From NCBI RefSeq assembly GCF_023078835.1, contig NZ_CP090898.1, positions 1,242,045 through 1,306,044 of the forward strand: DNA of 64,000 nt, written 5' to 3'. Of the stretch, positions 8,035 through 26,478 are shown piece after piece; the stretch's first letter is position 1; each line of letters opens with the position of its first letter. Under the pieces are notes generated by a model. The model ran no database searches and was not told where the DNA came from. It saw only the letters and a program-made list of their open reading frames with translations. Position numbers and translations under genes: made by a program. The DNA is from Synechococcus sp. NB0720_010 (GTDB lineage: Bacteria; Cyanobacteriota; Cyanobacteriia; PCC-6307; Cyanobiaceae).

Positions 8035-8706
8035 GTGACGCAACTGGCCGTGAGAGAACTACCGCTGTTCCCGCTGCCGGATGTGGTGCTCTTCCCCCAG
8101 GAGGTGCTGCCGTTGCACATCTTTGAGCCGCGCTACCGCATGATGCTGCGCACGGTTCTGGAGAGTGACCGGCGCTTTGGGGTGGTCCGCTGGGACCCCC
8201 AGGAAGGCACGATGGCCAGCGTGGGCTGTTGCGCTGAGATCCTGCAGTGCCAAACCCAGGACGACGACCGCAGCTACATCGTCACGATGGGACAGCAGCG
8301 CTTCAGGTTGCTGGAGGTGGTGCGCGAAGCCCCCTTCAAGGTCGGCCTGGTGAGCTGGATTGAGGACGAGCAGCCCGAGGACCACAGCGGGCTTCAGGAA
8401 CTCTCCGGAGAGGTCAGCAGTGCCCTCAAGGACGTGGTGGAACTGACCGGCAAGCTGATGGGAAAACCCACCAGCCTCCCCAGCGACCTTCCGGACCTGC
8501 CCAGGGAGCTCTCCTATTGGATCGGCTCCCACCTGGGTGGTCCCGTGGCTGATCAACAGCAGGCCCTGCTGGAGATCACGAACACCGAAGAGCGGCTGCG
8601 TCAGGAATTCGAACTGCTGGATGAGACCCGGCGTCAGCTGGCCGCTCGAACGGTCCTGGAGTCGACCCTGCGCGACCTGAAGACGGGCGAGAGCGAGGAG
8701 GACTGA
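8035..8706 (+). CDS. LON peptidase substrate-binding (LON-N) domain protein
   Basis: 223 residues from a GTG (MTQLAVRELPLFPLP). The frame is open back to 7963, but that start would overlap the terminator region and family similarity begins at RELPLFPLPDVVLFPQEVLPLHIFEPRYR, the typical N-terminal signature of the Lon substrate-binding domain. There is no AAA+ or protease domain, so this is a stand-alone LON-N protein of unknown partner. The C-terminal third (from about residue 165) is helical and charged. Stop is one base from the start of the next gene, so the two are probably translated together. Confidence 0.85.
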   Translation: MTQLAVRELPLFPLPDVVLFPQEVLPLHIFEPRYRMMLRTVLESDRRFGVVRWDPQEGTMASVGCCAEILQCQTQDDDRSYIVTMGQQRFRLLEVVREAPFKVGLVSWIEDEQPEDHSGLQELSGEVSSALKDVVELTGKLMGKPTSLPSDLPDLPRELSYWIGSHLGGPVADQQQALLEITNTEERLRQEFELLDETRRQLAARTVLESTLRDLKTGESEED

Positions 8707-8707
8707 G

Positions 8708-9694
8708 ATGCCCACCCCTGCCGTTTTGGCGCTGCTCAGCCCCTGGGCGAGCGGCCTGATGCTGGCGGCCGCCGTGGCAGCGGTCCTGTTACTCATTGGC
8801 CTGGCGATTTGGTCAGCGCGCGATCGGGCCTTCGAGAGCACCGCCAGCGTGGCGGAGGCCTACGACCGCTGGACCGACGACCAACTGCTGGAGCGGCTTT
8901 GGGGCGACCACGTCCACCTCGGGCACTACGGCTCTCCGCCAGAAACCCGGGACTTTCGGGCCGCCAAGGCTGACTTTGTCCACGAACTGGCGCGTTGGAG
9001 CGGGCTGGATCAGCTGCCCAAAGGCAGCACCGTCCTGGATGTCGGCTGCGGCATCGGTGGCAGTGCCCGGATCCTGGCCCGCGACTACGGCCTGAACGTG
9101 CTCGGCATCAGCATCAGCCCAGGCCAAATTCAACGGGCGCAGGAGCTCACCCCAGAGGGCCTGAGCTGCCGCTTCGCGGTGATGGATGCCCTCGATCTTC
9201 AACTAGAAAACGGCAGCTTTGATGCGGTCTGGAGCGTGGAAGCAGGCCCTCACATGCCTGATAAGCAGCGCTACGCCGATGAACTGCTGCGGGTGCTCAA
9301 ACCCGGTGGTCTCTTGGCCGTGGCCGACTGGAACCGCCGCGATCCGGAGGTCAAACCCCTCAACCGCAAGGAGCGCTGGGTGATGCACCAGCTCCTGGTG
9401 CAGTGGGCCCACCCGGAATTCGCCAGCATCCCGGGTTTTCGGCGCAACCTCGAGCAAAGCCCCTGGAGCAGCGGCGCCCTCGTGGAGACCGGCGACTGGA
9501 GCCGCGAGACCCTGCCCTCCTGGATTGAATCCATCCTCGAAGGAGTGCGCAGGCCCAAAGCAGTCCTCGGCCTGGGTCCTAAAGCTGTGCTGATGGGGCT
9601 GCGTGAGTCACCCACCCTGCTGCTGATGCATTGGGGCTTCGCCACCGGAATGATGCAGTTCGGTGTCTTCCGAACCCGCAAACCGGCGGCCTAG
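8708..9694 (+). CDS. 2-methyl-6-phytyl-1,4-benzoquinol methyltransferase-like protein
   Basis: 328 residues. One N-terminal membrane segment (about residues 8-36) is followed by a class I SAM methyltransferase: VLDVGCGIGGSARILA (motif I), FDAVWSVEAGPHMPDK and LLRVLKPGGLLAVADWN. The WGDHVHLGHYG and GPHMPDK stretches closely match, from memory, the Synechocystis Sll0418 enzyme, which methylates 2-methyl-6-phytylbenzoquinol (tocopherol) and related prenylquinols. Membrane anchoring fits a lipophilic quinol substrate. Its 3' end overlaps the convergent pheA by 4 bases. Confidence 0.85.
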   Translation: MPTPAVLALLSPWASGLMLAAAVAAVLLLIGLAIWSARDRAFESTASVAEAYDRWTDDQLLERLWGDHVHLGHYGSPPETRDFRAAKADFVHELARWSGLDQLPKGSTVLDVGCGIGGSARILARDYGLNVLGISISPGQIQRAQELTPEGLSCRFAVMDALDLQLENGSFDAVWSVEAGPHMPDKQRYADELLRVLKPGGLLAVADWNRRDPEVKPLNRKERWVMHQLLVQWAHPEFASIPGFRRNLEQSPWSSGALVETGDWSRETLPSWIESILEGVRRPKAVLGLGPKAVLMGLRESPTLLLMHWGFATGMMQFGVFRTRKPAA

Positions 9695-23984: not shown

Positions 23985-25073
23985 ATGGGAAGCAGCTTCG
24001 GCGATCTCTTCCGCATCAGCACCTTCGGCGAATCCCACGGCGGCGGGGTTGGCGTGATTGTGGAGGGTTGTCCGCCGCGACTGGAACTCGACCTCGAGGC
24101 GATCCAAGCCGAGCTGGATCGACGCAAACCAGGCCAAAGCAAGATCACAACCCCCCGCAAAGAAGACGATCGGGTGGAAGTCCTCAGTGGTCTGCTCGAT
24201 GGGGTCACCCTCGGCACCCCGATCGCAATGGTGGTGCGCAACAAAGACCAGCGTCCCCAGGACTACAAGGAGATGGAGGTGGCCTTCCGCCCCTCCCACG
24301 CCGATGCCACCTACCAAGCGAAATACGGCATCCAGGCCCGTAGTGGTGGCGGGCGCGCCTCAGCGCGGGAGACGATCGGTCGGGTCGCCGCTGGGGCCAT
24401 CGCCAAGCAGCTGCTGAGCAAAGCCCACGGCACAGAAGTGGTGGCCTGGGTCAAACGCATTCATGACATCGAGGCCGAGATCGATCCAGCAGCGGTGACC
24501 CTTGAGGCCGTCGAAAGCAACATCGTGCGCTGCCCCAATGCCGCTGTTGCGGAGCGGATGATCGAGCGGATCGAAGCCATCGGGCGGGAAGGGGACTCCT
24601 GCGGTGGCGTGATCGAGTGTGTGGTTCGCGGCGTACCCGCCGGCTTGGGCATGCCCGTCTTCGACAAGCTTGAGGCCGATCTGGCCAAGGCGGTGATGTC
24701 CCTACCGGCCACCAAAGGCTTTGAGATCGGCTCCGGATTTGCCGGAACCTTGCTCAAGGGCAGCGAACACAACGATGCGTTCTTGCCCACTGGAGATGGC
24801 AGCCTGCACACCGCCACCAACAACTCTGGCGGAATTCAGGGGGGGATCAGCAACGGCGAGGCGATCGTGATCCGTGTGGCCTTCAAGCCAACGGCCACGA
24901 TCCGCAAGGCCCAACAAACGATCAATGCCCGGGGTGAGGCCACGACCCTGGAAGCAAAAGGTCGGCACGACCCCTGCGTGTTGCCCAGGGCCGTACCGAT
25001 GGTGGAGGCGATGGTCGCCCTTGTGCTGGCTGATCACCTGCTGCGGCAGCAGGGTCAGTGCAGCCTCTGGTGA
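23985..25073 (+). CDS. aroC: Chorismate synthase
   Basis: 362 residues. [69 protein letters not shown] and [18 protein letters not shown] are the successive chorismate synthase signatures. It converts EPSP to chorismate with reduced FMN. Together with pheA in this window it belongs to aromatic amino acid, quinone and tocopherol supply. Ends 7 bases before the convergent H1-like gene. Confidence 0.97.
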
Positions 25074-25080
25074 GAGCGGA

Positions 25081-25740
25081 TCAACGCAGGCTGGTCAGCT
25101 GAGCAGCGCCGTTGTTGCCGTTGGTCGAGGGTGCGGAACCCAAACGGCCGACGGCCTTCGCCATACGCTTCGCCACTGAGCCACCGCGGGTGGCCCCGGT
25201 CTTCTTCACCGGGTTGCGTGCTGCTTTTTTAGCGACCGGCTTGGCCTTGGGCGCAACCTTGGATTTCGCAGCAGCGGCAGGCTTGGCCTTCGCGGCAGTG
25301 CTCGCAGCTTTCTTCGGAGCTGCTTTCTTCACCGCTGTGGCTTTCGCCGCAGGCTTGGCCTTGGCGGCAGCGCGCTTGGTGGTGGTTGCCGATGCCTTTT
25401 TGGCAGCGGTCTTCTTGGGGGCGGCTTTCTTGGGCGCCGCTTTACTGATGGTGCTGCGGCTGCGGTGGCTCAGGATCAGAGCCCATTCCGCATCCGAGAG
25501 GTTCGCGGGCTTGGCGCCATGGGCATTGGCGAGCTTGGCCGCTTTCTCAATGTCGGAAATGAGGTTTTTCCAAGAGGTCGCGAAACGCTTGTCGGATTGC
25601 GACTTAGCTCCGCTTTCAACCAGGGTCTCGACGACCCCAGCTGCAGAGACCTTCTTGCGGCGGCGATTGAAAATCTCCTTTTGGAGCTGAGCGATCAGAG
25701 CATCAGCTTTATCGCTCAACTTGATGGTGAGTTGAGACAT
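25081..25740 (-). CDS. Histone H1-like Lys/Ala-rich protein
   Basis: 219 residues in two parts. Residues 1-100 are globular (MSQLTIKLSDKADALIAQL..., FNRRRKKVSAAGVVETLVESG) and may hold a short coiled or ribbon-helix-like fold. Residues about 100-195 are an almost pure Lys/Ala/Pro tail with AAPKKAAPKK, AAAKAKPAAK and similar repeats, like eukaryotic H1 and bacterial H1-like proteins such as HctB, AlgP or BpH. A tail of this kind binds DNA or RNA through charge. I do not recognise a named cyanobacterial gene. It sits between aroC (convergent) and the KDPG-aldolase-family gene (same strand, 39-base gap). A nucleoid-associated role is inferred. Confidence 0.75.
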   Translation of the reverse strand: MSQLTIKLSDKADALIAQLQKEIFNRRRKKVSAAGVVETLVESGAKSQSDKRFATSWKNLISDIEKAAKLANAHGAKPANLSDAEWALILSHRSRSTISKAAPKKAAPKKTAAKKASATTTKRAAAKAKPAAKATAVKKAAPKKAASTAAKAKPAAAAKSKVAPKAKPVAKKAARNPVKKTGATRGGSVAKRMAKAVGRLGSAPSTNGNNGAAQLTSLR

Positions 25741-25779
25741 AGGTCGAAAGACGTCTATCCCATGAGTAACACTCTGGAC

Positions 25780-26478
25780 TCAACCTGACAACAAGTCGCC
25801 ATTGGCGCGCTGCTCGAGCCATGCCAGCAGCGCCGTCAACCCTGGCCGCAATTGCAGGGGTTGCTGTGGGCCTTGAGACGTCTCAAACAAGCTCCCTCCC
25901 AAGGCCACCGCATCGACTCCGGACTCCAACCAGAGACGTGCATCCAGGGCTGACAACCCTCCTGCCGCAATGCAATAGGGCAATGGCGACAGGGGTCCTG
26001 CAAGCGAGTTCCAATAGCTCGCACCCAGACTGCTGGCCGGGAAAAGCTTCACTGCGGGCGCACCCAAGGCCTGGGCCCGTGCCACTTCCGACGGGGTGTA
26101 GACACCAGGAATCAAGGTGATCCTGGCCTGTTGCGCTTTCGCCAAAAGCTCAGGCTCAAGGATGGGCGAGACGACATAGTCCAAACCGGCGGATTGAGCC
26201 GCCGCCAATCCTTTCAGGCATCGCACCGACGCAGCACCCAGGCGCAGTGACGGAAAAGACTGGCGCAGCTCCATCGCCAACTCAACCCAGGCGGGAGTGA
26301 GAGCAACCGCCAGCTCGACATGGCGCAGACCTGCTTCAACAAGGAGGTTCAGTTGGTGCTGGGCCTGCTGAAGCTCAGAAACACGAAGCACCGCCAGCAC
26401 AGGCTGGCGGTGCAATCCCCTGAGAAGCCCAGAGGGATCTGAGGCGAGGACCTCAGACGTATTCAGCAACTCGGACAT
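25780..26478 (-). CDS. eda: KDPG / 4-hydroxy-2-oxoglutarate aldolase family protein
   Basis: 232 residues. Class I aldolase features: QPVLAVLRV, HVELAVALTPAW (Glu equivalent to catalytic Glu45), PGVYTPSEVARAQALG and VKLFPASSLG with the Schiff-base Lys, then CIAAGGLS and VDAVALGGSLF. This matches KDPG aldolase of the Entner-Doudoroff pathway and related oxo-acid aldolases; the true substrate cannot be read from sequence. The start overlaps the end of ftsH by 26 bases, so it is probably translated from the ftsH message. Confidence 0.85.
   Translation of the reverse strand: MSELLNTSEVLASDPSGLLRGLHRQPVLAVLRVSELQQAQHQLNLLVEAGLRHVELAVALTPAWVELAMELRQSFPSLRLGAASVRCLKGLAAAQSAGLDYVVSPILEPELLAKAQQARITLIPGVYTPSEVARAQALGAPAVKLFPASSLGASYWNSLAGPLSPLPYCIAAGGLSALDARLWLESGVDAVALGGSLFETSQGPQQPLQLRPGLTALLAWLEQRANGDLLSG

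Follow-up and report, generated by a model that had tools for sequence, protein, structure and literature searches.

The gene described here encodes a histone-H1-like protein (HLP) of a picocyanobacterium, Synechococcus sp. NB0720_010, and is present in a single copy in that genome. It lies in a window of 64,000 nucleotides, the whole stretch of DNA that we analysed. HLP is a real gene under purifying selection, and this selection is strong on its conserved N-terminal domain (N-domain). With modest confidence, we favour the reading of HLP as a nucleoid-associated protein with an accessory role, specific to picocyanobacteria and acting like the tails of AlgP or HctB. We infer that HLP binds DNA, condenses it and has whatever effect on expression may follow. 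Picocyanobacteria rank among the major primary producers of the oceans; HLP, being clade-specific, highly conserved and equipped with an H1-type tail, is a direct candidate for a chromosome organiser among them. In open-licence PMC text we recognised no published description of HLP, or of a chromosome-organising protein of such type in picocyanobacteria.

Coding status and surroundings of the HLP gene

The initial annotation had placed a protein at 25081-25740, leaving its strand unnamed. A 219-aa ORF was recovered there, its N-terminal part free of repeats and its C-terminal part rich in Lys, Ala and Pro, and it is encoded on the minus strand (Table 1). The plus-strand reading of 25081-25740 contains a stop. 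The window holds 288 stop-free stretches of 100 aa or more, and we scored each on the 100 residues where it is most basic. HLP reached 71 K+A+P with 27 K, versus 41 K+A+P and 11 K for the runners-up. Changes in the N-domain among relatives are mostly synonymous and fall mainly on third codon positions. Comparison with WH7803 gave 15, 7 and 42 differences at codon positions 1, 2 and 3, respectively (dN 0.11, dS 1.4), and comparison with the nearest strain compared gave a dN of 0.005 and a dS of 0.28. The dN/dS ratio was 0.02-0.11 in 8 of 11 comparisons, two others being saturated and one having no value owing to an ambiguous base. A 192-aa antisense ORF (window 25112-25690, plus strand) crosses the HLP gene and is most likely a by-product of GC-rich Lys/Ala/Pro codons.

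Table 1. Positions of HLP, its parts and its neighbours in the window, and of the copy on contig L137 (contig coordinates).
Feature	Position	Strand	Remarks
HLP gene	25081..25740	-	219 aa; ATG at 25740; stop 25083-25081
Conserved N-domain, residues 1-93	25462..25740	-	conservation; AlphaFold2; net charge +6
Lys/Ala/Pro core of tail, residues 100-185	25186..25443	-	residue composition
Recurrent C-terminal motif GGSVAKRMAKAVGRL, residues 186-200	25141..25185	-	related forms end many, not all, relatives
TGTTAC, promoter-like extended -10 element	25766..25771	-	31 nt before HLP start codon
TTGTCA, -35-like hexamer	25786..25791	-	inside end of eda-like gene; by-eye reading
eda-like (KDPG aldolase-type) gene	25780..26478	-	upstream neighbour of HLP
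aroC	23985..25073	+	convergent neighbour, 7 nt from HLP stop
HLP copy on cyanophage contig L137	450-944	+	between capsid and psbA, beside 118-aa gene

The neighbours in the window are taken to be aroC and an eda-like gene. HLP adjoins eda and/or aroC in 117 of the loci L001-L119 (several of which are one contig met twice), the exceptions being the Prochlorococcus loci L095 and L099, and the gene order is sat-ftsH-eda-HLP-aroC wherever loci are long enough. A motif of the form TG[CTG]TA[ACG], picked after inspecting the sequences, occurs at -48 to -18 in 78 of the 85 different sequences upstream of HLP, with 75 at -30 to -32. Likewise, it occurs in 34 of 39 distinct upstream regions from a second set of 41 copies of low-light Prochlorococcus (the high-light and low-light labels of the Prochlorococcus genomes examined are assumed here and below). 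Control shuffles, which preserve base composition only, gave means of 6.1 and 3.8 and maxima of 13 and 9 for the 85 and 39 regions, respectively. Because this conserved element and a -35-like TTGTCA stand upstream, HLP probably has its own promoter, judging by sequence.

A conserved N-domain and a variable basic tail

AlphaFold2 predicts helices in the N-domain at residues 10-27, 35-43, 48-74 and 83-93 (mean pLDDT 66.4), and a second model built from a deeper alignment did not raise the confidence (mean pLDDT 62.7). Two stretches of the domain, SQSDKR[FY] and QLQKEIFNRRRKK, are nearly invariant. The first 102 loci yield 70 distinct N-domains, each sharing at least 82% identity with that of the window protein, and identity goes down to 69% in the low-light Prochlorococcus copies. 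In the alignments (A1, A2) the rows L005, L020 and L022 begin two codons before the start codon and end without the final two residues.

No Pfam or NCBIfam family scored above its cut-off on the N-domain (window protein; for Pfam, 31 aligned N-domains as well), and PDB sequences gave zero matches at E up to 10. PHROG 33917, a family of unknown function, matched residues 7-45 weakly (E 0.003). No recognised DNA-binding domain was found by Pfam, NCBIfam, PHROG or PDB sequences. Foldseek searches of PDB and BFVD with the first model returned no match with E below 0.001, and the best VIA-align match, a P450 (Z 4.2, rmsd 4.4, 52 residues), was set aside as unrelated. A clear non-DNA function of this domain, which the initial annotation had named as the finding that would overturn its proposal, did not turn up, and no family could be assigned.

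The tail (residues 94-219) has a net charge of +34 and zero acidic residues, and is presumably disordered. Its length had been put at almost 100 residues; 126 aa stand behind the conserved domain, and the Lys/Ala/Pro core takes up a part of these (Table 1). A high copy number of KAAPKK units was overstated, as there are only three occurrences, two of them overlapping, and TRF found only short 15-bp arrays of 2.1-2.7 copies. The expectation of a length-variable, fast tail behind a slow N-domain was upheld when tail lengths were compared across strains and relatives. Where strains share 99% of N-domain residues with the window protein, their tails measure 119, 119, 126 and 129 aa. Across 115 distinct complete proteins (the first 102 loci gave 78 and the second set 37, leaving out duplicates, sequences cut by contig ends, sequences with X and L083, whose tail is odd) tail length ranges from 39 to 273 aa (CV 0.49). 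Net charge, at +9 to +49 (CV 0.30), varies less than length, and acidic residues are absent from 55 of the 115 tails. The tails also vary in sequence: SSVAKRMAKAVSRL-like motifs close many freshwater tails, the tails of ~50-62 aa in oceanic Synechococcus have a high Arg content, and PRKARRAKR- or RPARRARK-like stretches terminate many tails of low-light Prochlorococcus.

The tail had been assigned to the H1/HctB type. Its composition is indeed like that of H1, AlgP and HctB, but membership of the HctB family is not supported: HC2 (PF07382) did not come up for the window protein at E up to 10, and in 4 of 10 other relatives scanned it reached 13.8-21.6 bits, below the curated 40-bit cut-off. 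A genome scan with HC2 gave matches at E up to 0.01 in 7 of 17 genomes, none above the cut-off, and the match in the window's own genome lies at another place than HLP. Weak HC2-like matches in other long ORFs of three HLP-negative genomes (G045, G055, G066) show that basic tails exist on other proteins too.

Like HctB/Hc2 of Chlamydia, which is reported to be a size-variable, DNA-binding protein of 165-237 aa (PMC2848022), HLP is lysine-rich, basic, size-variable and of similar length. Unlike HctB/Hc2, HLP has a separate conserved N-domain and stays below the HC2 cut-off. AlgP (AlgR3) and PhaF of Pseudomonas share with HLP a helical N-domain followed by a long, strain-variable Lys/Ala/Pro tail; in AlgP this is a disordered tail of 25 perfect KPAA repeats, and KPAA tails are reported to bind DNA (PMC9239181). 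A long, length-variable Lys/Ala/Pro tail of the AlgP/PhaF type is thus present in HLP, but with few regular repeats and weak KPAA regularity compared with AlgP, and the N-domain has no detectable sequence relation to those of AlgP and PhaF.

Distribution, multiplication and a structured 3' RNA element

A search of other cyanobacterial genomes found all convincing relatives in one GTDB family (f1), which we take to be the alpha-cyanobacteria, in agreement with the picocyanobacterial origin first proposed. The N-domain is present in 22 of 25 genomes of the window's genus, including 14 of 14 that are at least 90% complete; the three negative genomes are 68-83% complete. In the order survey, whose species are a draw and not a census, it occurs in 119 of 299 genomes (108 of the 260 more complete ones), and 119 of 119 belong to f1. 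The phylum survey, drawn in the same way, gave 33 of 386 genomes, all in f1 except one 18-bit match (G566; E 0.005, profile positions 43-79) that we judged to be due to chance, 386 genomes having been searched. Among named genomes, a scan brought 140 confirmed relatives, the best 80 of which come from Synechococcus, Cyanobium, Vulcanococcus, Prochlorococcus, unnamed cyanobacterial bins and one "Bifidobacterium" bin. The locus from this last bin (L055, CALPNT020000140.1), labelled Bifidobacterium breve, has the sat-ftsH-eda-HLP-aroC order of picocyanobacteria, and the label is presumably wrong. Several of the genomes surveyed are, we believe, known strains: G026 would be SS120, G031 and G033 MIT9301 and MIT9312, G042 MIT9211, G061 Cyanobium gracile PCC 6307, G094 NATL2A and G108 RCC307.

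The high-light Prochlorococcus examined lack HLP, and low-light ones carry it in multiplied form. We found aroC in nine HLP-negative genomes, two of which are presumably high-light Prochlorococcus. In eight of the nine an eda-like gene comes next after aroC with no HLP between them, and in the ninth (G053) the eda/aroC place is rearranged. In six multi-copy low-light genomes (G026, G027, G032, G071, G092, G139) HLP was not found beside aroC, and 2-4 copies stand at other places; another genome, G056, retains a broken copy at the ancestral place. Two or more N-domain matches occur in 30 of the 119 positive genomes of the order, and in at least two of them (G056, G304) a broken copy is among those counted.

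The recent duplication units consist of the promoter and the HLP gene and little else, with no recognised mobile element. In G032 the unit is a 574-nt perfect inverted repeat that begins at -84 and ends 1 nt beyond the stop codon (L124:5785-6358 and 8656-9229), and in G071 (L122/L123) it is 578 nt long, 99.5% identical, begins at -81 and ends 11 nt beyond the stop codon, the copies being ~0.5 Mb apart. The HLP pairs of G139 and G092 have longer, older common flanks. The idea that the duplicated unit is an insertion element found no support by eye: no common terminal sequence was seen at the ends of the two recent duplications. The simplest reading of the copies is duplication followed by gene conversion. 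Two small gene families, F1 and F2 (small ORFs in L120-L132), recur beside relocated copies, and F1 lies ~270-380 nt upstream of HLP on the same strand in L124, L127, L128 and L130.

Behind 14 of the 41 low-light copies read we found a three-way-junction fold, approximately GTCAG-CCG....CGG-GAGAGGTGCAATGCCTCTC-CTGAC, with a TGCAATG or TTCAATG loop (two sites each in L126, L167 and L171, one each in L128, L129, L132, L133, L158, L159, L161 and L162). A fifteenth text match, in L170, looked false. In the alignment of the 14 sequences, many of them close relatives and the same from which the structure was derived, 96.2% of pair cells are standard, versus 91.6 in shuffles and at most 48.1 in slid controls. 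Likewise, 15 cells carry changes on both sides, versus 5.2 in shuffles and at most 4 in slid controls. Four pairs change on both sides, and 47 of 500 shuffles attain that count as well; further pair types show no excess (4 versus 7.6 in shuffles). A covariance model, with 150 candidates scored per genome, gave 14 matches in 11 of 20 genomes. By positions compared by hand, 13 of these begin 0-14 nt behind an HLP stop, and the fourteenth, a weak one (G092, E 0.009), stands in a 3-kb locus that lacks HLP. The model found none in the other 9 genomes, which include that of the window and the multi-copy G032, G042 and G071. In the 12 loci scanned, the element drew no Rfam family at gathering score, and a permissive scan of one element's region brought up four implausible below-threshold matches, the best being to a trypanosome snoRNA model (25.9 bits, where the cut-off is 77). 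Since T-rich sequence follows many of the elements, they may be elaborate terminators; the conserved loop suggests something more than a terminator. Standing beside many low-light copies, the element offers a testable layer of control.

Candidate functions and a copy on a phage contig

In the nucleoid reading that we favour, the helical N-domain would provide specificity or self-association, perhaps through the two nearly invariant stretches, and the tail, free of acidic residues, would follow DNA by charge, a behaviour reported for the KPAA tails of AlgP/PhaF and for HctB. A tail so placed would let HLP bridge or condense the chromosome. This reading is consistent with a tail composition unique in the window, a charge steadier than the length, selection on the N-domain and a conserved promoter-like element. 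The reported DNA binding of KPAA tails (PMC9239181) and of the size-variable Hc2 (PMC2848022) counts for it as well. Against it stand the lack of a recognised DNA-binding domain and the empty fold searches; moreover, a basic tail could equally bind RNA, polyphosphate or other polyanions. HLP is not a core nucleoid protein, since lineages without it live well. HU, whose nucleoid role resembles the one proposed for HLP, is unrelated to it in sequence: HU (PF00216) has no Pfam match in HLP and is another gene in the window's genome. All 12 genomes tested, with HLP or without it, keep a separate HU gene, so HLP is accessory.

A rather unlikely alternative, in our view, is that HLP is a tether whose N-domain holds a polyphosphate granule or alpha-carboxysome and whose tail holds DNA, as proposed for AlgP and PhaF. 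Its restriction to the window's family, presumably the alpha-cyanobacteria, agrees with a carboxysome role, but HLP is absent from high-light Prochlorococcus and Cyanobium genomes that, we assume, make carboxysomes as well. Furthermore, the layout resembles that of AlgP, which has a helical N-domain and a disordered KPAA tail (PMC9239181), but Pfam scans at E up to 10, made with the window protein and with 31 aligned N-domains, showed no phasin family.

It is unlikely, in our judgement, that HLP is RNA-binding or ribosome-associated and perhaps controls its own message. The structured element just past the stop of low-light copies would suit such a role, and polycationic tails bind both RNA and DNA. 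However, neither the window protein nor the 10 relatives scanned matched an RNA-binding family above cut-off, and the window locus, with 7 nt to the end of aroC, leaves no room for the element, of which the model found none in that genome.

That HLP is a regulator or antitoxin of the ribbon-helix-helix (RHH) type with an added tail appears quite unlikely. By eye, residues 3-45 follow a strand-helix-helix order, and the two models place helices at 10-27 and 33/35-43/46; these are low-confidence monomer models, and Foldseek and VIA-align found nothing reliable for the first. No RHH family matched in the Pfam scans, and no neighbouring toxin gene was seen near HLP in the window's ORF list. A profile comparison by hhalign with 28 cyanobacterial RHH_1 (PF01402) segments scored 11.0, at residues 81-89, no better than 60 column shuffles (mean 10.4, maximum 20.1), a test made weak by the shallow HLP family alignment (Neff 1.5). 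Membership of the RHH family is not supported by these comparisons.

We consider it highly improbable that HLP positions cell bodies in alpha-cyanobacteria as a single-protein system, in which the N-domain grips an alpha-carboxysome or polyphosphate granule and the adjustable tail hangs that body on the nucleoid, replacing McdAB (not identified in the clade), with copy number increased in low-light Prochlorococcus and the gene acquired by a phage.

HLP was found on a single viral contig, L137 (IMG/VR, 5,668 bp), the same one in three scans of 2.9 million viral contigs that require exact short peptide matches first; tblastn against annotated phages (50,697 records) gave no match at E up to 1. 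The portal, scaffold, hli and psbA genes of L137 resemble those of T7-like cyanophages, with HLP in the opposite orientation to these, and the major capsid gene begins on the other side of HLP. Homology to P-SSP7 at 287-326 and 1466-1591 tightly flanks an insert of HLP and the 118-aa gene, so that HLP is bracketed by phage DNA. Going by the sequence of this one contig, in which an assembly error is possible, HLP may be a phage-carried copy. In a tree of 285 bases, whose class labels come from regular expressions and are rough, the phage HLP falls among low-light Prochlorococcus copies, with support below 0.8 for its exact place. If HLP is truly phage-borne, phages can gain from it. The minus strand of L137 also carries, at 1527-1582, a match of 57.9 bits to the Glutamine-II riboswitch family (Rfam RF01704), behind the phage psbA and before the 118-aa gene.
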